NCBI GenBank assembly: GCA_002029975.1
Contig: LQBE01000015.1
Location: 176-58,246, forward strand
Origin: a delta proteobacterium ML8_F1
Lineage (GTDB): Bacteria > Bacillota > Clostridia > Peptostreptococcales > Acidaminobacteraceae
Reading direction: 5' to 3'
DNA: 58,071 nucleotides
The notes beneath the pieces are model-generated. The model saw only the letters and a list, made by a program, of their open reading frames with translations. It was not told the origin of the DNA and ran no database searches. The position numbers and the translations under genes were made by a program. The stretch's first letter is position 1, and each line of letters starts with the position of its first letter. Below, in pieces: positions 1-40,184 of the stretch.

Positions 1-1
1 C

Positions 2-1327
2 AACAACTATCCGAAGGATGGCACTACCTTCACAGATTCAGACGGTTACTATGAGTTTTCAGATCTTCCCACAACGACTACTGAAGCCCTGGTGGTCCGC
101 TACTCCAATGTAGAGGGTCCCATCGTTTCAGAATATGACGGCACCCTGAACGGAACCAACGAGGTGAATTATGTTCCCAATCTCAGCAATCCGCCCTATG
201 TGAACTTTGGCCACTGGGACCATCACCTCCAGATTGAAAAGAGCGTCGATGACGGAACAGTCGAAGTCGGAGATACCGTCGAATACACCGTAATCGTCAG
301 AAACCTCGGCAATATGCCCTTCTACTACCTGGATGTCACCGATACCCTGGAGGATGAAGATCCCGTATCCCTGGGTACGGATGAGATTTTCGAACCCGGC
401 GAGGTACACACCTACACCTACAGCACCACCTTCAGCGACGAAGGCACCTATGACAATGTGGCGGCCGCCACAGGCTACCGTCCTGATGAAAGCACCATAG
501 GAGTCGTTGACGACGCCACGGTGGTGGTCACCGACGGTGACAATCCTCCACGACAAACCACCCGCTACACCCTGAGCGGTTACCTGTTCAGCGATATCGA
601 CGGGGACAACACAGTGGATGACGGAGAAACCGGCTATGAAGGTGTCACCGTGGATCTGTATCTGGGAGATTCCCTCTACCGAACCACTACCACCAATGCC
701 GACGGACGTTACAGTTTCAGTGACTTGAGAGGCGAATACACCGTAGTCGCCAATCCAGACAATGAAATAATGGATGCCCAGGTCTCTGAAGCGGATGGAA
801 CCCTTGATCAGGAGGTCACTGAGTCAGTCTACGCAACGACCTCCAATATCAATTTCGGTTACCAGCCCGCCCCCTTGGATGTAACAACCCTCATCTCAGG
901 TTATGTGTTCAATGACCTTAACAGCGACAACATTTTCGACGCCGGAGAGACCGGTTACTCCAATGTGGAAGTCACCCTGTGGTTTGACGGCGAACCCGTC
1001 ACCACGACTCTGACAGCCGCCAACGGTCTTTACGTTTTCGACTTCCTGACCAATCCCGAGCTCAATGGAATGGATCCGGGAGAATATACAGTCACCATCG
1101 GAACGGCACCAACAGGTGTCTACCAGGTTTCTGAGTACGACGGGACGCCCATGGACAGCACCGTGGTCCTGGAGCTCACCGAGGAAACCGAGGCAATCAC
1201 CGATGTCAACTTCGGGTTTAAGTCTTCTGTCACCCCCAGTGGCGAAACTTATTACTATCAATGGACCCTCTTGGGTTGTCTGATCCTGCTGGCCGGTGCA
1301 TTTTTAAGAAAGAAACCGAGCTTCTAG
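2..1327 (+). CDS. SdrD-B/DUF11 repeat surface adhesin, 3' part
   Basis: The reading frame is open from base 2, so the gene starts outside the window; the GTG at 92 is internal and has no ribosome binding site. The 441 visible residues are modular. The tail of one SdrD-B (Cna-B-like) module comes first (D-S-D-G-Y-Y-E-F). A DUF11/CARDB-like beta domain follows at about 75-160 (EVGDTVEYTVIVRN). Two more SdrD-B modules lie at about 188-285 and 297-405, each opening SGY(L/V)F(S/N)D and closing with a (I/V)NFG(Y/F) strand. Acidic DxDGD-type loops suggest calcium binding. The C-terminus has a hydrophobic segment of about 18 residues and a short RKKPSF tail, as in sortase substrates or membrane-anchored surface proteins. 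No LPxTG is present; the nearest candidate is TPSGE. A class D sortase gene follows 56 bases later. The likely role is adhesion or an extracellular stalk protein. Confidence 0.85.
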   Translation, partial: NNYPKDGTTFTDSDGYYEFSDLPTTTTEALVVRYSNVEGPIVSEYDGTLNGTNEVNYVPNLSNPPYVNFGHWDHHLQIEKSVDDGTVEVGDTVEYTVIVRNLGNMPFYYLDVTDTLEDEDPVSLGTDEIFEPGEVHTYTYSTTFSDEGTYDNVAAATGYRPDESTIGVVDDATVVVTDGDNPPRQTTRYTLSGYLFSDIDGDNTVDDGETGYEGVTVDLYLGDSLYRTTTTNADGRYSFSDLRGEYTVVANPDNEIMDAQVSEADGTLDQEVTESVYATTSNINFGYQPAPLDVTTLISGYVFNDLNSDNIFDAGETGYSNVEVTLWFDGEPVTTTLTAANGLYVFDFLTNPELNGMDPGEYTVTIGTAPTGVYQVSEYDGTPMDSTVVLELTEETEAITDVNFGFKSSVTPSGETYYYQWTLLGCLILLAGAFLRKKPSF

Positions 1328-2130: not shown

Positions 2131-2159
2131 TTGACATTTAAAGAAAATCATGTTACCCT
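2131..2159 (+). promoter_or_regulatory. Sigma-A promoter for the riboswitch-transglutaminase unit
   Basis: A consensus -35 TTGACA lies at 2131-2136. After a 17-base spacer comes an extended -10, TG-T-TACCCT, with TG at 2151-2152 and the hexamer at 2154-2159. It sits about 40 bases upstream of the first riboswitch aptamer, so transcripts would carry both aptamers. Confidence 0.7.
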
Positions 2160-2189
2160 TAAGGGGCAAATAGGAATCTGAAGAAGTTG

Positions 2190-2287
2190 GTCTTTCCAAC
2201 GATAACGGCAAACCAGCCAAAAGGCTGGGACGCAAAGCTACAGGGCCTTCACCTTGAATCAAGGAAAGGCAGCCAGCTACCGAATTA
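2190..2287 (+). promoter_or_regulatory. Cyclic-di-GMP-I (GEMM-I) riboswitch, first of a tandem pair
   Basis: The core GGCAAACC..GGGACGCAAAGCT..AGGGCC..AGGCAGCCAGCTACCGA matches the class I c-di-GMP aptamer, including the conserved GGACGCAAAG segment and the ACCGA end. The two expected paired arms can be drawn: CAGCC/GGCTG, and the CCTT/AAGG-containing second arm. A short hairpin (GTTGG/CCAAC) precedes the aptamer. No clear terminator follows, only a T-run after AGAGAGAC. The aptamer is nearly identical to the second copy. Confidence 0.9.
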
Positions 2288-2324
2288 GAGAGACTTTTTA
2301 TTTGAAAAAATTATGGAAGTTACT

Positions 2325-2428
2325 TCGCTGATCTCAATAGCGATAAAGGCAAACCAGCCAAAAGGCTGGGACGCAAAGCTAAAGGGCCTTCACCTTGAAC
2401 CAAGGAAAGGCAGCCAGCTACCGAAGGG
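2325..2428 (+). promoter_or_regulatory. Cyclic-di-GMP-I (GEMM-I) riboswitch, second of a tandem pair
   Basis: This aptamer repeats the same conserved core (GGCAAACCAGCC, GGGACGCAAAGCT, CAGCCAGCTACCGA) and is also preceded by a small hairpin (CGCT..AGCG). Its 3' strand runs directly into the ribosome binding site GAAGGGAG of the transglutaminase gene, whose ATG is at 2441. Ligand-dependent closure of the P1 helix could therefore affect translation start. The on/off sign cannot be read from the sequence with confidence. Confidence 0.9.
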
Positions 2429-2440
2429 AGATTATTTTTT

Positions 2441-3220
2441 ATGTTCAAGCGTTCCTTGATTCTGTTGCTTGCCGCTGTAATGTTTTTCAGCCCCACTGCC
2501 GTCAGCTTCGCCGACGCAGCCAGTTACAGCTTCACTGCTCTGGAAACAGGCGCCATAGCGATTCAAAAACCCGCCGACAACGATCTCAGGGTTTTCATCA
2601 CAAAGGAAGACCATCAGGCACTGTACACCCTCACTGAGGATGCCCGGCTTCCCCTGCAGTTCGGCAACGGCGATTACGAAATCAACGTTTATGAAAAAAT
2701 CAACGGCCGCTTCAAATTGATTGACCAACAGGCTCTCAACCTCCAGCTTGAAGATCCCAAAGCCGTCTATCTCAATGCCACTCAGAATGTCGACTTCAAC
2801 GAAGACATGGCCGCTGTCAGAAAAGCCAGGGAACTCACCCGGGACCTTGCCACCCAAGCTGAAAAAATTGACGCCATACACAGTTATGTCATCGAAAATA
2901 TCGTCTACGACTATCAGAAAGCCCGCACTGTCAAAGGAAACTATGTGCCAAGTGTGGAAGGAACCTTTGAAATTGCCAGTGGAATCTGTTACGACTACGC
3001 CTCTCTCATGGCTGGAATGCTTCGAAGTATCGGAGTTCCCACCAAGGTGGCTGTCGGTTATGTCGGCACGGTCTACCACGCCTGGAACGAGATTTATCTC
3101 GAAGAAACCGGAGAGTGGATTACCGTGGACGCTACCCAGGATGCGATTTACTCCAAGTACGGCCTGCCGGTGAGCCTCTCCAAAACTTCCGACATGTACC
3201 AGGTGGCCGTCACTTACTAA
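2441..3220 (+). CDS. Secreted transglutaminase-like (TGL domain) protein
   Basis: This 259-residue exported protein has a signal peptide at 1-25 (hydrophobic LILLLAAVMFF, then A-D-A). A beta-rich N-terminal part is followed by a transglutaminase-core domain at about 125-235. The catalytic triad is visible: Cys183 in GICYDYASL, His213 in VYHAWNEIYL and Asp230 in TVDAT. Bacterial members of this family act as cysteine proteases or cross-linking enzymes at the cell surface; the substrate cannot be told. Its start follows GAAGGGAG at the edge of the second c-di-GMP aptamer, so its synthesis is very probably controlled by c-di-GMP. It lies next to a sortase and an adhesin, suggesting a role in switching between attached and free states. 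A terminator follows at 3250. Confidence 0.85.
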   Translation: MFKRSLILLLAAVMFFSPTAVSFADAASYSFTALETGAIAIQKPADNDLRVFITKEDHQALYTLTEDARLPLQFGNGDYEINVYEKINGRFKLIDQQALNLQLEDPKAVYLNATQNVDFNEDMAAVRKARELTRDLATQAEKIDAIHSYVIENIVYDYQKARTVKGNYVPSVEGTFEIASGICYDYASLMAGMLRSIGVPTKVAVGYVGTVYHAWNEIYLEETGEWITVDATQDAIYSKYGLPVSLSKTSDMYQVAVTY

Positions 3221-3249: not shown

Positions 3250-3288
3250 GATCCCCGATTTCAATCCCCCCGGGGATCATTTTTTTTG
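3250..3288 (+). terminator. Intrinsic terminator after the transglutaminase gene
   Basis: An 8-base stem, GATCCCCG/CGGGGATC (3250-3257 with 3271-3278), is followed by A and a run of eight T. Confidence 0.85.
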
Positions 3289-3294
3289 TTTTTC

Positions 3295-3613
3295 CAGGTG
3301 ATGTCCAGGCGCTTAGAAACCCGACGAAAATCCAGTCCTTTAAGCTCACCTGGGTGAAGAAGACGCTAAGTGACAGTCTGTATGGCGAAAGACCCCCGCC
3401 TAGTGAAAGCGGGCGCTTCCTGGTCGATATCTCTGACGGGAGAAATTTCTCCGGGTTCCAAAGGTCTCACACCGGCCCCGGCGCACCAAAACAACAGGGG
3501 CGGTCCAGCAGTTTTTTAGCTGCACCAGGATCTTCTTGCACAGATGAAAGGCCAGTCAAAACAACTGACCTCTCCCCTTGGTCCCACAAAGCCCCCGAAA
3601 CCGGGGGCTTTGT
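3295..3613. ncRNA. Unidentified hairpin-rich region, candidate structured RNA
   Basis: No convincing protein is encoded between the transglutaminase terminator and pepP. The stretch instead folds locally: CCCGC/GCGGG (3395-3399 with 3409-3413), GGAGAAA/TTTCTCC (3439-3452), CCGGCCCC/GGGGCGG (3472-3479 with 3497-3503), GGTCCAGC/GCTGCACC (3502-3509 with 3519-3526, one mismatch), and GGCCAGT/ACTGACC near 3551-3570. A distal pairing, GTGAAGAAGA (3354-3363) with TCTTCTTGCAC (3531-3541), would bracket the middle hairpins. It ends in a 12-base terminator-like stem. I compared it from memory with RNase P RNA, tmRNA, 6S, SRP RNA and common riboswitches and found no match. Strand is undetermined. Confidence 0.35.
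3586..3613. terminator. Bidirectional terminator-like hairpin
   Basis: ACAAAGCCCCCG pairs perfectly with CGGGGGCTTTGT around an AAAC loop. The T-rich 3' arm can serve transcripts from either side: the candidate RNA from the left, and pepP, which ends at 3619, from the right. Confidence 0.7.
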
Positions 3614-11113: not shown

Positions 11114-12904
11114 CTATAGACCCAGCTGGTCTTTTCTTTCCTTCGACGGTACGCCATCGGTTCCCCAGCCCCTCAGTTCATAGTACTCAGGAAGCATTTT
11201 GCTGAGCTGGTTCACTAATCCCTTGGAGGGTCCCTCAGGAATTTCATCCTCCAGCAGTCTCTTGGGCAGGGTGTCTTCAGCAGGCGTAATTCCCGCTGCA
11301 AGGTTGAAGACCCGTTCAAGGTTGTAGATTCTTTCTCCCGCTTCCAGGACCCCGTTGCCGTCCAACTCAGCGCCTACAATGGCATTGAACATGGCTGCAT
11401 AATCAGGCGCTCCCATGGCAAAGGAGGTAAACAGGCACAGTCCTGAAGAATCGATAAAAGCTGTGAAATCCTGGAAGATTTTAGTCCAGGGCGCTTTGTC
11501 CTCCAGGGCGAAACGGTCCAGTTTTTCCGGCAGTCCCAATATCTCCGGAGAAATCATGTAGCCGCGGACGTGACAGCCGCCACGGTTCGAGGTGGCGTAG
11601 GAAAGACCCTGTCCCTGGATTCCCCGGGGATCGTAGGCGGGAAGCTCCTGTTTTTTGACTGACATGGAGAGCTCGGGTACGCCAAAGGCATCACAGAGTC
11701 TATAGGATCCATCGGCCATTTTGTCGCCAAGGCCCTCTCTCATACCGATTTTCTTGGTCCACTCAACAATGGCTTCGGCACTGCCGAATTCCAGGGGAAC
11801 CCCCCCGAGATTTTCATCTTTGAGCAGGCCCTTTTGATTGAGTTCCATAGCTGCCGCAATGGTGGTCCCTGTGGAAATCGTGTCCAGACCCATTTCATTG
11901 CACCAGTAGTTGGCTTTGATGATGGCGCCCATGTCGTCCACGCCACAGTCTCCACCGAAGGCCCAGATGGTTTCATACTCCGGTCCGCCCCCCTCGATGT
12001 CATCCACCTTGGTATAACGACCGCAGGCAATGGGACACCGGTAGCAGGGATCCTTTTTCACGAGATACTTTTCAGCCAGCAACTCGCCACTGATATTCTC
12101 CGCCCCTGGGAATTGCGAGCTCTGGAAGTTGTTGACGGGGAAGGCGCCGTTTTCATTGATGATGTTGACAAGCACCGCCGTCCCATAGGCCGGCAGTCCC
12201 TGACCCGTGACGCCGTTTTCTCTGATTTTGGTATTGCAAGTCTTGATGACTTCTTTCAATTCTTCTTCGTTTGCCACGGCAACCTTTTTAGTGCCGCGGA
12301 CAGTGACCGCCTTGAGATTTTTCGAACCCATCACGGCTCCAACCCCGGACCTGCCCGCAGCCCTGGACTCTTCGTTCATCACTGCCGCCATCAGGGACTG
12401 TTTTTCTCCCGCGGGGCCGATGGTCATAACCCGGGATTTTTCCGGAATTTCTTTCATGAGGGTTCTTGTGGTATCAGAGGTGACCTTGCCCCAGACGTGG
12501 GAGGCATCCCGGATTTCCACTTTTTCATCCTCAATCATGACATACACCGGTTTGTCGCTTTTGCCTTCAACAATGATCATATCGTAGCCGGCGAATTTCA
12601 GCTCCGCACCCCAGTATCCCCCTGAGTTTGACGAGGCGATGGTACCGGTAAGGGGTGATTTTGTCACCACCATATACCTTCCTCCAGTAGGAGCTGTGGT
12701 ACCGGTCATGGGTCCAGTCACTGCAATGAGCTTGTTTTCAGGACTCAGGGCATCCACTAGGGGATCCACTTCATCTACAAAAAACTTCGTTCCGAGGCCG
12801 CGACCACCGACCCATTTCTTGGCCAGCTCCAGGTCGAGATTCTCCACCTTGCAAGTGCCTTCCGTCAGGTTGATTCTCAGATACTTTCCATGGTAACCGT
12901 ACAT
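11114..12904 (-). CDS. aor: Tungsten-containing aldehyde ferredoxin oxidoreductase
   Basis: The enzyme oxidises aldehydes to carboxylic acids (or the reverse) with ferredoxin, using a tungsten bis-pterin and one [4Fe-4S] cluster. The 596 residues match the AOR family: N-terminal pterin-binding domain (GKYLRINLTEG, GGRGLGTKFF, GPMTGTTAPTGGRYMVVTKS), then the cluster ligands CYRCPIAC with a late Cys in DSSGLCLF, and GDCGVDDMGAI in between. I start it at ATG 12904, eight bases after AAGGAGG. It heads an operon with the radical-SAM maturase, MoaD-like and ThiF-like genes, and lies beside cofactor genes moaC, moaA, moeA and moaB. In a fermenter it would detoxify aldehydes from amino-acid breakdown or couple acids to alcohols. 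Substrate range cannot be told. Confidence 0.93.
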   Translation of the reverse strand: MYGYHGKYLRINLTEGTCKVENLDLELAKKWVGGRGLGTKFFVDEVDPLVDALSPENKLIAVTGPMTGTTAPTGGRYMVVTKSPLTGTIASSNSGGYWGAELKFAGYDMIIVEGKSDKPVYVMIEDEKVEIRDASHVWGKVTSDTTRTLMKEIPEKSRVMTIGPAGEKQSLMAAVMNEESRAAGRSGVGAVMGSKNLKAVTVRGTKKVAVANEEELKEVIKTCNTKIRENGVTGQGLPAYGTAVLVNIINENGAFPVNNFQSSQFPGAENISGELLAEKYLVKKDPCYRCPIACGRYTKVDDIEGGGPEYETIWAFGGDCGVDDMGAIIKANYWCNEMGLDTISTGTTIAAAMELNQKGLLKDENLGGVPLEFGSAEAIVEWTKKIGMREGLGDKMADGSYRLCDAFGVPELSMSVKKQELPAYDPRGIQGQGLSYATSNRGGCHVRGYMISPEILGLPEKLDRFALEDKAPWTKIFQDFTAFIDSSGLCLFTSFAMGAPDYAAMFNAIVGAELDGNGVLEAGERIYNLERVFNLAAGITPAEDTLPKRLLEDEIPEGPSKGLVNQLSKMLPEYYELRGWGTDGVPSKERKDQLGL

Positions 12905-12960
12905 AGAACATCCTCCTTTTTTTGGCGCGCTCAAGCTGTGTGAGTCGCTAGAAATAATTA

Positions 12961-13034
12961 ACCGTGGTGCATTAATCTATTCCAATTCCTTTCCAAAAGG
13001 GAGGCAATACAGTTTCCTACATCACCCATTGGTC
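12961..13034 (+). promoter_or_regulatory. Moco-RNA-like element, lying antisense to the flanking genes
   Basis: The plus strand has a CCTTTC/GGGAGG hairpin (12988-12993 with 12999-13004), then CAATACAGTTTCCTAC (13005-13020), enclosed by a helix of ACC-GTGGTG (12961-12969) with CATCAC and a following GGT. The GGGAGGCAA..GTTTCCTAC combination is what I recall of the Moco (molybdenum/tungsten cofactor) RNA motif, and the genes around it are cofactor genes. The puzzle is that both neighbours, aor and moaC, read the other way. I may have the strand of the consensus wrong; if so, this is an ordinary leader element 57 bases upstream of aor. Confidence 0.4.
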
Positions 13035-13097
13035 AGCCCTCGTAGAGAATCGGTCTCCTTAGAGAATCTGACTCGGAATTTGGTAACCCCTTGTCCT

Positions 13098-35348: not shown

Positions 35349-36776
35349 TTATTCCTTGAGCTTCCTTTCCAGGATTGCCTTGACGATGCCTGGATTTCCC
35401 TTGCCCTTCGTGGCCTTCATACACTGTCCCATCAAAAATCCAAAGGACTGGGTCCTGCCGGCCCTGTAATCTGAGAGCGCCTGGGGGAATTCTTCGATGA
35501 CTTCCTCAATGACGGCTTCCAGCGTCTGTGCAGAGCTGATCTGATTCAGACCCATCCCTTCGATAAGGGCCCCTGTGGATTTTTCCTGATTGATGAGGGC
35601 CTCAAAAACCTCCTTCGCCGCAGTGCGGCTGACCGTACCCTTTTTCACCTCCAGAATCAGATCCGACAGTTGCTCGGGAGTCAGGGGGACTTTCTCCTGG
35701 TTTTTCATCACCCTGAGCACCTCGGTGATAATCCAGTTGGCAGATTCCCTGGGTTCCCGGGAAAGGGCCACAGTGGCTTCGAAAAAGTCTGCAATCATCT
35801 TTTCTTCAATGAGAATATCCACATCGGTCTCTCTGAGCCCGTAGGCAGCCATCATCCGCTTTTTCCTGTCCACGGGCAGCTCCGGAAGAGAGCTTCTGAT
35901 TTGGAGCACCCACTCCCTGTCAATCCTCACCGGGGGAAGATCCGGTTCTGGAAAATAGCGGTAGTCATGGGCATCCTCTTTGGAGCGCATGGCAAGGGTT
36001 CTGCCCTTGGCCTGATCCCATCTTCTCGTCTCCTGGACCACCTTGTGCCCCTCGCCGTAGGAATACAGCTGCAGCTGGCGGCTCTCTTCCTTTTTGATGG
36101 CTTTGTAAACCTCCTTGATGGAGTTCATGTTTTTGATTTCCACCTTGGTATTGAGGACTGATGTCCCGGCTTTCCTGAGGGAAATATTGACATCCGCCCG
36201 CATGGACCCCTGTTCCATCCGACAGTCAGAAATCCCGGAATAGACCAGAATCGACCGAAGCTGCTTGAGAAAGGCTACGGCCTCCTCGGCACTGCGGATG
36301 TCGGGTTCGGTGACAATTTCAATCAAGGGCACCCCGCCCCGGTTGTAGTCCACCAGGGTGTAGGCCTCATCCTCAAGATGAATCAGTTTTCCAGCATCCT
36401 CTTCAATGTGAATTCTGGTGAGATTCACCCGGGTTTTTTCCCCCTGGGCCGTGACCTCCACGAAGCCCCCGGTGCAGATGGGCAGATCAAACTGGGAAAT
36501 CTGATAGGCCTTGGGCAGGTCCGGATAGAAATAATTCTTGCGGTCCATCTTATTGATGAGATTGATTTCACATCCCAGGGCATTGCCGGCCTTTACAGCC
36601 AGATGGACCACCTCTTCATTGAGGACCGGCAGAACCCCGGGGAGTCCGATACACACGGGACAGGTATTGACATTGGGCTCAGCCCCAAAGGCAGTGGAGC
36701 AGGAACAGAATATCTTGGATTTCGTATTGAGTTCCACATGAATCTCCAGACCTATGACAGTTTCATAGACAGCCAT
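35349..36776 (-). CDS. gatB: Asp-tRNA(Asn)/Glu-tRNA(Gln) amidotransferase subunit B
   Basis: GatB is the kinase and tRNA-binding subunit of the GatCAB complex, which amidates misacylated Asp-tRNA(Asn) or Glu-tRNA(Gln). The 475-residue protein has the signature ETVIGLEIHVELNTKSKIFC with the metal Cys set (CSC, CPVCIGLPG), the VNLTRIHIEEDAGK motif, DYNRGGVPLIEIVTEPD, and a C-terminal YqeY-like tail for tRNA elbow recognition. Its ATG shares one base with the gatA stop, so it is tightly coupled. It is last in aspS-gatC-gatA-gatB. Confidence 0.97.
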   Translation of the reverse strand: MAVYETVIGLEIHVELNTKSKIFCSCSTAFGAEPNVNTCPVCIGLPGVLPVLNEEVVHLAVKAGNALGCEINLINKMDRKNYFYPDLPKAYQISQFDLPICTGGFVEVTAQGEKTRVNLTRIHIEEDAGKLIHLEDEAYTLVDYNRGGVPLIEIVTEPDIRSAEEAVAFLKQLRSILVYSGISDCRMEQGSMRADVNISLRKAGTSVLNTKVEIKNMNSIKEVYKAIKKEESRQLQLYSYGEGHKVVQETRRWDQAKGRTLAMRSKEDAHDYRYFPEPDLPPVRIDREWVLQIRSSLPELPVDRKKRMMAAYGLRETDVDILIEEKMIADFFEATVALSREPRESANWIITEVLRVMKNQEKVPLTPEQLSDLILEVKKGTVSRTAAKEVFEALINQEKSTGALIEGMGLNQISSAQTLEAVIEEVIEEFPQALSDYRAGRTQSFGFLMGQCMKATKGKGNPGIVKAILERKLKE

Positions 36777-38248
36777 TATTCCACCCCCCCTAATTCAGGT
36801 ATCAAATCCAGGCCCAGGTCTTTTTCAAGGGCATAGGCAATCCTGAAGAGCTTGCTTTCTTCGAAATGATTCCCCATGAACTGGATTCCGACGGGAAGTC
36901 CCGACTCACTGAATCCCGCCGGCATGGACAGGGCGGGGATTCCAGCAATGTTCACATTGACGGTGAACAGGTCCGCCAGGTACATCTCCAGGGGGTCCTG
37001 GGTCTTCTCACCCAGTTTGAAGGGCAGCATCGGTACCGTGGGGGAGACAATGGCATCATAGGTTTCAAAGGCTTCCCTGAAGAGTCCCCGAACCTTCTGG
37101 CGAAAAAGCATGGCTTTTTTATAGTAGGCATCGTAATAGCCCGAGGACAGGACATAGGTCCCGAGCATAATGCGGCGCTTGACTTCTTTTCCAAAGGCTT
37201 CCGTCCGGGACTTGACCACCAGCTCTTCAAAGTTCTTGTATTCCCCGGCCCGGTAGCCAAAGCGCACGCCGTCGTAGCGGCCGAGGTTCGAGCTTGCTTC
37301 AGCGGAGGAAATCATGTAGTAGGCGCTGAGTCCGCTCTGGGTGATGGGCAGGGTGAATTCCTCCACTTCAGCACCCTGGTCTTCAAGGCTTTTCACCCCA
37401 CGGAGAACAATCCTTCTGACCTCGGGATTCACCCCTTCAGCGAAAAATTCCCTGGGAATGCCGATACGCATTCCCCTGACCCCTTGCTTCATCGCGGCGG
37501 CATAGTCTTCCTTGGTCCTCCCCGGGGCCGAAGTGGAATCCCTGGGGTCAAAGCCTTCAATCCCCTCCAGGGCGTATGCCGCATCCTCGACAGTTCGTGC
37601 GAAGGGCCCGATTTGGTCCAGGGAGGAACCAAAGGCAATCAGTCCATATCGGGACACCCTGCCGTAGGTGGGCTTGACCCCGACCAGACCACAGAAGGCC
37701 GCCGGCATGCGGATGGATCCCCCTGTATCGGACCCCAGGGCCATGGGGGCGAATCCGGCAGAAACCGCCGCCGCCGAGCCTCCCGAAGAGCCGCCAGGCA
37801 CCCGCGAGGAATCCCACGGATTCCTGACGGGGTGGAATCCGGAATTTTCATTTGAAGAACCCATGGCGAATTCATCCATATTGGTCTTGCCGAGAATCAC
37901 CCCCCCCTGGTGCTTCAAGGCCTCGACGACAGTGGCATCATAGGGGGGGACGAAGTCCTCCAGCATTTTTGAAGCACAGGTAGTCCTGAGCCCCCTGGTG
38001 CACATATTGTCCTTTACCGCCACAGGAACTCCGTCGAGGATATTGAGGGCTGATCCCCGTGCTATCCTTTGATCCACCTGTCGACTTGTTTCCAGGGCGC
38101 TATTTTCATCGAGGGTGAGGAAAGCGCCGATCTGCCTGTCATAGCTTTTAATCCTCTCGAGATAGGCCTTCGTGATTTCTTCCGCCTTGAATTCCTTTTG
38201 TTGAAGCCCCTCATGGATTCTTTTAATCGTCAACTTTTCAACTTCCAT
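36776..38248 (-). CDS. gatA: Asp-tRNA(Asn)/Glu-tRNA(Gln) amidotransferase subunit A
   Basis: GatA releases ammonia from glutamine or asparagine for GatB. The 490-residue protein has the amidase-signature triad: Lys in VAVKDNMCTRG, and the two Ser in VPGGSSGGSAAAV and LGSDTGGSIRMPA. The glutamine-pocket residues of the family (SLDQIGPFARTVED) are conserved. The start is ATG 38248 behind AGGAGGT. It follows gatC by 11 bases. Confidence 0.97.
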   Translation of the reverse strand: MEVEKLTIKRIHEGLQQKEFKAEEITKAYLERIKSYDRQIGAFLTLDENSALETSRQVDQRIARGSALNILDGVPVAVKDNMCTRGLRTTCASKMLEDFVPPYDATVVEALKHQGGVILGKTNMDEFAMGSSNENSGFHPVRNPWDSSRVPGGSSGGSAAAVSAGFAPMALGSDTGGSIRMPAAFCGLVGVKPTYGRVSRYGLIAFGSSLDQIGPFARTVEDAAYALEGIEGFDPRDSTSAPGRTKEDYAAAMKQGVRGMRIGIPREFFAEGVNPEVRRIVLRGVKSLEDQGAEVEEFTLPITQSGLSAYYMISSAEASSNLGRYDGVRFGYRAGEYKNFEELVVKSRTEAFGKEVKRRIMLGTYVLSSGYYDAYYKKAMLFRQKVRGLFREAFETYDAIVSPTVPMLPFKLGEKTQDPLEMYLADLFTVNVNIAGIPALSMPAGFSESGLPVGIQFMGNHFEESKLFRIAYALEKDLGLDLIPELGGVE

Positions 38249-38562: not shown

Positions 38563-39855
38563 CTATGGTTTCAATCGGTTGAGATCCCTGGGTACCAGGG
38601 TTGCCTGGCGGATATTGTCCAGTCCAAGAAACATCATGGTAATCCGTTCAAGTCCGATGGCCAGCCCACCGTGGGGGGGCATGCCGTACTTGAAGGACTC
38701 AAGGTAGAAATCGAAGTCCTCGGGCTTGCCGCCGGCCTTTTGAATGTTCTGATAAAGCTGGTCGTAATCGTGGATACGCTGTCCGCCGGTGGTGATTTCA
38801 AGCCCCTTGAAAATCAAATCAAAGGACCGGGTCATTCCCTCCAGATGCTCATCCGGCATGGTATAAAGAGGCCGCTTGGAGGCGGGATATTTGGTCAGAA
38901 ACACAAAATCAGAATCATAGGTTTCTTTGACATAGCCGGCGAAGAGCTTTTCACCCTCGGCATCAATATTTCCCACCGGGGATTTTTTGCCAAAGGTTTT
39001 CAGCAGTATTTCCTGGGCCTCCGTGAGGGGGATTCTCGGAATCCTGTCCACCTTCGGCAGCGCAGTGCCCAGAATTTCCAGGGCTTCGATGGCTGCAGTT
39101 TCCAGGTGGCCAATGATGGCCTTGATGAGTCGCTCCTCAAGATCCATGATATCCTCTTCACTGTCGATGAAGCCCATCTCCAAATCCAGACTGATGTACT
39201 CGTTGAGGTGCCGCCAGGTGCTGTGAGGCTCTGCCCGGTAGGCCGCTCCAATTTCAAAGACCCTCTCAAAACCGGCACCCACCATCATCTGCTTGTAGAA
39301 CTGGGGACTCTGGGCCATGAAGGTCCGGGTTCCGAAATAATCCAGAACAAAAACATCAGAGCCTCCCTCGGTTTCTATCCCGATGATTTTAGGAGTATGG
39401 ATTTCTGTGAATCCCTCCCGGATCAAAAAGTCTCTGAAAGCCTGGGTAATCTCCTGTTGGACCTTGAAAATCGCACGACGGTCCATCCTTCTCAAGGAAA
39501 CCGTCCGATGGTCAAGCTGTTTCTCCAGAGAAGCTTCAATCTCCCGTCCGTTGATTGAAAAGGGCAGCAGGTCATACCTGGCCTCACCCAGGACATCCAT
39601 CCGGCTCACCAGCACCTCCAGTCCACCGGGGGCCTTTGCATTCACCTGGAGGGTTCCCCTGACCGACACCGAGGCCTCCAGCCTCAGACTCTCAATCACT
39701 GTCTCCCCGTTTACAATCATCTGGACTATCCCGGTCCGATCCCTCAGGACCACAAAGGCGAAGGTTTTGAATTTTTTAATGCTGTGGATCCAGCCCTTCA
39801 AATAGACACTGTGGTCCATCTGTGGGCTGAGATCCCTGATCAATGTCCTTGTCAT
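38563..39855 (-). CDS. aspS: Archaeal-type (probably non-discriminating) aspartyl-tRNA synthetase
   Basis: This 430-residue class IIb enzyme is the short archaeal-type AspRS, without the large GAD insertion of bacterial AspRS. It has an N-terminal OB-fold anticodon domain (about 15-100), motif 2 (VFEIGAAYRAEPHSTWRHLNEY) and motif 3 (GGLAIGLERITMMFLGL). In Clostridium such enzymes charge both tRNA(Asp) and tRNA(Asn), and GatCAB then makes Asn-tRNA. The operon with gatCAB and the T-box with an Asn codon both support this. I start it at ATG 39855 after AGGAGA; an upstream TTG at 39888 lies in the terminator tail of the T-box. A discriminating enzyme cannot be excluded by eye. Confidence 0.9.
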   Translation of the reverse strand: MTRTLIRDLSPQMDHSVYLKGWIHSIKKFKTFAFVVLRDRTGIVQMIVNGETVIESLRLEASVSVRGTLQVNAKAPGGLEVLVSRMDVLGEARYDLLPFSINGREIEASLEKQLDHRTVSLRRMDRRAIFKVQQEITQAFRDFLIREGFTEIHTPKIIGIETEGGSDVFVLDYFGTRTFMAQSPQFYKQMMVGAGFERVFEIGAAYRAEPHSTWRHLNEYISLDLEMGFIDSEEDIMDLEERLIKAIIGHLETAAIEALEILGTALPKVDRIPRIPLTEAQEILLKTFGKKSPVGNIDAEGEKLFAGYVKETYDSDFVFLTKYPASKRPLYTMPDEHLEGMTRSFDLIFKGLEITTGGQRIHDYDQLYQNIQKAGGKPEDFDFYLESFKYGMPPHGGLAIGLERITMMFLGLDNIRQATLVPRDLNRLKP

Positions 39856-39883
39856 GGGTATCTCTCCTAACATTTTGAGTTTT

Positions 39884-40165
39884 TTCAATAAAAAACCTCC
39901 GCACTTAAAGATAAATCTTTAAGGACGAAGGTTGTTTTCGCGGTGCCACCTTAATTAGCATAGGCTCTCTCATTGACGGGTACGGACAATCACATCGATA
40001 CCCCTTCTGCTGTAACGTGCAGTTGACGTCCAAGTCTACTCTCACAGGCTGTGATTTCGGTTGGCGACTCGGGGATGTTCTTCAGATAACCTGCCATGGC
40101 CGAACTTTCACCCTCATCGGCTCGCTAATCATTTCCTGCTATCCTACTCTTCCCGTCATGGTCTT
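39884..40165 (-). promoter_or_regulatory. T-box leader with overlapping Glu/Asn specifier
   Basis: The minus strand has the T-box core AAGGTGGCACCGCG (39939-39952) followed by a terminator, AACCTTCG..CGGAGGTT with a TTTTTT run (39884-39933). The stem I region precedes it, ending near 40160, with a specifier-loop candidate CTGAAGAACATCC. There GAAC (40077-40080) contains GAA (Glu) and AAC (Asn) overlapping by two bases. The leader controls aspS-gatCAB, sensing uncharged tRNA(Asn) and perhaps tRNA(Glu). The secondary structure was not computed. Confidence 0.9.
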
Positions 40166-40184
40166 TGTATGTGTATTTTGATTG

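Follow-up and report, generated by a model that had tools for sequence, protein, structure and literature searches.

The window, a stretch of 58,071 nucleotides starting 175 bases into its contig, opens within a surface adhesin gene, which is followed by a sortase gene and by a gene for a secreted transglutaminase-like (TGL) protein whose leader contains two class I c-di-GMP (c-di-GMP-I) aptamers. The features of this locus are listed below, with the basis of each assignment in brackets.

1–1327, + strand: surface adhesin, C-terminal part (SdrD_B, DUF11, DUF7507), ending in a signal of sortase type made up of TPSGE, a hydrophobic stretch and RKK (Pfam, anchor scan)
1384–2091, + strand: sortase, 56 nt past the adhesin stop and probably co-transcribed with the adhesin (PF04203, 4e-27; NCBIfam sortase_fam over cut-off)
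2131–2159, + strand: probable TGL leader promoter, TTGACA-17-TACCCT, the -10 being preceded by TG (sequence; kept in the relative L007)
2186–2200, + strand: competing 5' hairpin GUUGG-UCUUU-CCAAC, which traps the 5' strand of the aptamer 1 extended P1 (folding energies)
2189–2196, + strand: 5' strand of the aptamer 1 extended P1, partner 2288–2295 (folding, comparison with relatives)
2198–2285, + strand: c-di-GMP-I aptamer 1, with G20 at 2207, A47 at 2234 and C92 at 2280 (RF01051, RF03167)
2288–2299, + strand: 3' strand of the aptamer 1 extended P1, GAGAGACU, leading into a U tract; presumably a terminator stabilised by ligand (folding)
2325–2343, + strand: competing 5' hairpin of aptamer 2, UCGCU...AGCGA, with GAUCUC in the loop (folding energies)
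2330–2335, + strand: GAUCUC, anti-Shine-Dalgarno 5' strand of the aptamer 2 extended P1, partner 2428–2433 (folding, swap test)
2339–2426, + strand: c-di-GMP-I aptamer 2, with G20 at 2348, A47 at 2375 and C92 at 2421 (RF01051, RF03167)
2426–2433, + strand: Shine-Dalgarno GGGAG plus AUU, forming the 3' strand of the aptamer 2 extended P1 (sequence, folding, swap test)
2441–3220, + strand: secreted TGL cysteine enzyme of 259 aa, C183/H213/D230 (PF01841, alignment, AlphaFold2)
3264–3286, + strand: intrinsic terminator behind the TGL gene (terminator scan)

A candidate structured RNA 3' of the TGL gene (3280–3560) was rejected, as its folding z-score was +0.36 and no Rfam match exceeded the threshold. 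Elsewhere in the window, a molybdenum/tungsten cofactor riboswitch (12972–13090, - strand) directly precedes an aldehyde ferredoxin oxidoreductase-like ORF (11114–12934); one internal hairpin of the family model is absent from it, which may mark the tungsten type. An ordinary T-box leader (39918–40168, - strand) precedes an aspartyl/asparaginyl-tRNA synthetase-like ORF (38563–39888) and a gatA-like ORF (36776–38248).

The adhesin and the TGL enzyme

The sortase and adhesin that had been predicted as neighbours of the riboswitches were confirmed by the PF04203 match and by the SdrD_B/DUF11 domains of the upstream gene. The 5' end of the adhesin gene lies beyond the contig edge, with about the first 670 residues absent from the assembly, and a genome search for this part and its riboswitch returned just contig-edge fragments and aptamers 1 and 2. 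The contig sequence immediately before the window (G000:C15:1-168) repeats about 39 adhesin residues from just downstream, which points either to an artefact of the assembly or to a repeat that interrupted it. TPSGE or VPSGE replaces LPXTG at the adhesin ends in the window (1–1327), in L111 (3797–7126 and 7520–11218) and in L110; the sortase beside these adhesins passed no class-specific NCBIfam cut-off and possibly has an unusual specificity.

The TGL ORF matched PF01841 (4e-21), and with its Cys-His-Asp residues it belongs to the Transglutaminase-like superfamily. The residues C183, H213 and D230 were invariant in 28 aligned TGL sequences and the N-terminus, as read from the sequence, was signal-peptide-like, in agreement with the signal-peptide-bearing TGL-domain protein originally proposed. 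The structure predicted by AlphaFold2 (mean pLDDT 89) matched Streptococcus pyogenes TglA (Z 14.4), on which a search of the open literature found no paper, a putative cysteine protease (14.3) and human transglutaminases (about 11). It also matched LapG (Z 11.6, rmsd 3.1 Å, 127 residues), the likeness being one of fold only, as the LapG family PF06035 was not among the Pfam matches of the TGL protein. The fold core matched transglutaminases, TglA, LapG and pseudomurein endoisopeptidases about equally. The fold comparison was therefore discarded as a means of separating the two functions, and the predicted structure permits a protease or a transglutaminase because it matches both. Six loci (L119, L008, L009, L010, L013 and L016) contain two consecutive TGL paralogues, and as a rule each of the two has a separate c-di-GMP-I leader.

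The aptamers and the architecture of the TGL leader

In the covariance search with RF01051, which the original prediction had set as its refuting test, aptamers 1 and 2 scored 79.0 and 79.4 bits, respectively, over a gathering score of 35 (E about 5e-16, genome), and they differed at 5 of 88 positions (94% identical), as expected of the near-identical class I pair that had been claimed. They were the sole class I aptamers above the RF01051 threshold in the 2.38 Mb assembly. The limits first given for them (2190–2287 and 2325–2428) took in flanking P1 strands, the model matches being 2198–2285 and 2339–2426. The c-di-GMP-contacting bases G20, A47 and C92 (Vc2 numbering) were canonical in both aptamers in the sequence alignments, and the genome encodes ligand machinery with 19 GGDEF and 3 EAL domains. 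Clan competition in cmscan printed RF03167 for both copies (68.2 and 68.8 bits). This GGC variant is defined by G, not A, at position 47, and A47 was found in both copies and in every relative aptamer with a readable position 47; the label was thus rejected as a sign of an altered ligand.

Among the relatives, G occupied position 20 in 59 of 74 TGL-linked aptamers, whereas 14 of the 18 adhesin/sortase-linked ones had C or A there. C or A at this ligand-contacting position was seen in L007 (1363–1454) and in the adhesin/sortase-linked aptamers of L008, L009, L010, L012, L013 and L016. Because most adhesin-linked aptamers carry A or C here, their ligand is perhaps not identical, and the two groups may differ in ligand affinity or specificity. 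The idea that the aptamers sense another dinucleotide, either as members of the GGC class or as 3',3'-cGAMP sensors, could draw on these substitutions and on the cmscan label, but RF01051 outscores RF03167 (79 versus 69 bits), the GGC-defining position is A wherever it was read, and both window copies carry G at position 20, A20G being the change that converts a cGAMP riboswitch into a c-di-GMP riboswitch (PMC6456294). We give this idea hardly any credence and, judging from the sequences, assign aptamers 1 and 2 with high confidence as c-di-GMP-I riboswitches.

The leader probably starts from a promoter with the -35 element TTGACA (2131–2136), a 17-nt spacer and the -10 element TACCCT together with an extended TG; the equivalent place in L007 reads TTGACA-17-TATGCT. 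The promoter fell under the threshold of the promoter scanner and its -10 matches 3 of 6 positions, so the word 'strong' in the original prediction was generous. Downstream, each aptamer can close an extended P1 or leave its 5' strand to a local hairpin, and the two states were nearly equal in energy. For aptamer 1 the extended P1 (2189–2196/2288–2295, followed by the U tract) was calculated at -36.7 kcal/mol versus -36.3 kcal/mol for the hairpin at 2186–2200. For aptamer 2 the extended P1 with the Shine-Dalgarno paired was at -35.3 kcal/mol versus -35.4 kcal/mol for the hairpin at 2325–2343 with the Shine-Dalgarno free, and the unliganded folds of this copy included alternatives. A ligand stabilising P1 would tip both aptamers, each with its two near-isoenergetic states, to OFF.

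As had been claimed, the second aptamer runs into the ribosome site (GGGAG, 2426–2430). Its predicted P1 extension (2330–2335/2428–2433) covers this site, which is the anatomy of a translational OFF switch, burying the 3' half of the Shine-Dalgarno with just 3 of its 5 bases paired in the predicted helix. The stem and U tract of aptamer 1 were not called by the terminator scanner because the loop of this stem is the entire aptamer; the same layout of a P1 3' strand running into a U tract was found in L007, L110 and L111.

Expression platforms across the relatives

A covariance model made from 25 aptamers recovered 96 aptamers in 65 loci. In a swap test, the pairing of each 5' flank with its own 3' flank was compared with its pairing to the 3' flanks of other loci over 5000 permutations; this test and the association test below used simple redundancy filtering and count related loci as independent. 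The TGL-proximal copies paired in cis at a mean of -9.92 kcal/mol versus -7.98 ± 0.47 kcal/mol when swapped (0/5000; 25 non-redundant loci). The result was repeated with a second set of fresh TGL loci drawn evenly from the phylum, where the values were -7.91 and -5.84 ± 0.51 kcal/mol, respectively (0/5000; 16 non-redundant loci). The flank pairing of adhesin/sortase-linked aptamers was not locus-specific (P 0.91). In several relatives the P1 extension buries the spacer between the Shine-Dalgarno and the start codon, not the Shine-Dalgarno itself. Three class I TGL leaders of the phylum-wide set (L161, L162 and L165) are without a P1 extension and have a different expression platform. In the phylum-wide draw, 24 of the 29 TGL loci examined had one or more class I aptamers within the stretch fetched, nearly all of them directly upstream.

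As to whether each copy has a platform of its own, that of copy 2 is clear and the stem with U tract of copy 1 is plausible, the swap test for distal copies giving P 0.067 in the first set, which is weak, and P 0.005 in the second. The 94% identity of the window copies would also suit a recent duplication in which one copy works and the other has no regulatory role. Against this stand the separate platforms predicted for the copies and the fact that the majority of riboswitch-led TGL genes, within this family and outside it, have two or three copies in front, with differing flanks (two copies in 15 genes, three in 9 and one in 12), which make a single working copy very improbable.

The complete locus is present in the nearest relative, L007, which is of the same genus and has a TGL protein 73% identical. 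Its order is a predicted ON aptamer, an adhesin of 1128 residues, a sortase, two predicted OFF aptamers and the TGL gene. The leading element is as follows.

L007:1363-1454: single class I aptamer; its final ten bases serve as the 5' arm of a strong terminator (GGCTGCCAAT...GATGGCAGCC, TTTTT)

In this layout, a classic one for ON switches, the ligand holds the 3' strand of the aptamer and the terminator is prevented. Overlap of an intrinsic terminator with the 3' end of the aptamer was seen at 17 of 19 adhesin/sortase-linked aptamers of the relatives versus 0 of 74 TGL-linked ones, and again at 0 of 43 TGL-linked aptamers in the second set; the adhesin-linked aptamers are thus predicted to be ON. 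They stand ahead of, among others, SdrD_B/SpaA protein genes and, in Saccharibacillus, the gene for an ice-binding-like adhesin (pAdhesive_15) anchored through LPQTGE. Of the two exceptions, one, G048 (L112:4035-4428), has an OFF-type class I aptamer and behind it two serial class II aptamers, all ahead of the adhesin; the class II c-di-GMP riboswitch is ON in C. difficile (PMC6200980).

We also considered that the TGL riboswitches are ON; high c-di-GMP would then bring forth enzyme and adhesin at once, and TGL would mature or cross-link the cell surface. ON switches do exist among class I c-di-GMP riboswitches, and the alternative unliganded folds of aptamer 2 would leave room for it, but the terminator overlapping the 3' end, present at adhesin-linked aptamers, occurs in 0 of 117 TGL-linked ones, and the P1 extension that the ligand can stabilise covers the ribosome site and is locus-specific. 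An ON leader for the TGL gene is accordingly judged improbable, and we hold with good confidence, from the anatomy of the platforms, that the adhesin and TGL switches act in opposite directions. An opposite riboswitch of its own would probably precede the window adhesin as well; it was invisible to the original prediction because the 5' end of the adhesin is missing from the assembly.

Of the 36 TGL genes led by a riboswitch, 24 had a sortase gene on the same strand within 3.5 kb upstream, as against 1 of the 30 that lack a riboswitch (Fisher P 4e-8, the loci not being independent). As about one third of the riboswitch-led genes have no sortase nearby, the TGL substrate is maybe not always a sortase substrate.

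Proposed switch and comparison with known systems

From these features we infer the direction of each switch, the action of aptamer 1 as a terminator, an ON riboswitch in this genome and the substrate of the enzyme. The OFF platforms on the TGL arm and the ON platforms on the adhesin arm together imply that c-di-GMP should raise the adhesin and sortase and silence the TGL gene. At high c-di-GMP, aptamer 1 would close its extended P1 running into the U tract and stop transcription, and aptamer 2 would close its own, bury the Shine-Dalgarno and stop translation, so that TGL would not be made. The adhesin-sortase operon would be led by its own class I riboswitch, as seen in the congener, with a terminator that requires the aptamer 3' end; with ligand on this leader, transcription would pass and the adhesin would be displayed. 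When c-di-GMP drops, adhesin synthesis would end, TGL would be made and secreted, and most likely it would then cut or loosen the sortase-anchored adhesin and release the cell. We thus consider it probable that the two-copy OFF leader of the secreted, papain-like TGL enzyme is the counter-regulated half of an adhesin-sortase-TGL module, with adhesin release as the most likely role of the enzyme; the chances that it does so by cleaving the adhesin are about even.

The same opposing switch could instead serve a transglutaminase or wall-modifying enzyme that acts in the motile state by cross-linking, deamidation or hydrolysis of wall peptides and does not remove the adhesin. The nearly equal fold matches described above and the riboswitch-led TGL genes lacking a nearby sortase would agree with this; however, an adhesin cross-linker would be expected together with the adhesin, not against it, and the adjacency of sortase and TGL is conserved under opposite platforms. 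We regard a wall-modifying role as rather unlikely, and favour removal over cross-linking because the TGL gene appears to be regulated opposite to the adhesin. In its broadest form, the adhesin-releasing switch would be a Gram-positive, all-RNA counterpart of the Lap system, in which a TGL cysteine protease under serial OFF leaders sheds ON-led sortase-anchored adhesins across several families of the phylum, and this we put forward tentatively, at slightly less than even chances.

The original prediction had regarded tandem c-di-GMP aptamers as uncommon and their coupling to a TGL enzyme as an unfamiliar arrangement, and neither view held. Among same-class tandems, those of class I c-di-GMP riboswitches outnumber every other class, at 347 doublets and 12 triplets (PMC9481103). 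Table 2 of PMC12452182 reports for Bacillota an enrichment of the same pairing, tandem c-di-GMP-I aptamers with COG1305, 'transglutaminase-like enzymes, putative cysteine proteases' (P = 1.08e-34; 94% doublets, 6% triplets), which is therefore not new. It stands there as a table row; the main text has the word 'transglutaminase' once, and neither table nor main text goes into the direction of the platforms, the mechanism, or the setting beside adhesin and sortase genes. A search of the open literature found no paper joining TGL, sortase, c-di-GMP and riboswitch. Thus, the sensor-enzyme pairing has been tabulated already, and the opposing adhesin/TGL arrangement seems to be undescribed; the module proposed here would give a testable function to that row. 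Several complete class I riboswitches in series are also known from the triple-tandem Bc3-5 of Bacillus thuringiensis, which precedes another gene, was tested experimentally and gives a sharper response (PMC4759541). The present leaders would be natural examples of serial OFF control, in which a transcriptional stage is probably combined with a translational one, and single loci would carry matched ON and OFF platforms on one aptamer class.

The parallel to the C. difficile adhesin/protease switch, at first a guess, gained real support from the platforms and the linkage. In C. difficile, PPEP-1 shaves class II-controlled adhesins when c-di-GMP is low (PMC4591827, PMC11477304), and as proposed here, c-di-GMP riboswitches of opposite action control a sortase-anchored adhesin (CD2831/CD3246) and an adjoining secreted enzyme, PPEP-1 (ZmpI), whose leader is class I and OFF (PMC4591827, PMC6200980, PMC11477304), as predicted for TGL. 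The platform anatomy in L007 and the other relatives fits this pattern of adhesin ON and enzyme OFF, the adhesin leader of the window lying outside the assembly. The C. difficile enzyme is a zinc Pro-Pro endopeptidase behind one aptamer, whereas TGL is a cysteine enzyme behind two or three aptamers of class I. Class II controls the adhesins there, and mostly class I with an ON platform controls those here; adhesin cleavage, demonstrated for PPEP-1, is a prediction for TGL. In the LapA/LapG/LapD system of Pseudomonas fluorescens, c-di-GMP likewise keeps a TGL-fold cysteine enzyme, LapG, from freeing a large adhesin (PMC3032545, PMC4591827), but LapG is held post-translationally by LapD in a Gram-negative periplasm, unlike TGL with its predicted control at the RNA level. 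The new part would thus be a C. difficile-type opposing switch that uses a cysteine enzyme of LapG fold and OFF leaders with class I aptamers in series, which suggests that Gram-positive bacteria have repeatedly arrived at one choice between attachment and release by way of different enzymes, C. difficile using a metalloprotease and the present group a TGL cysteine enzyme.
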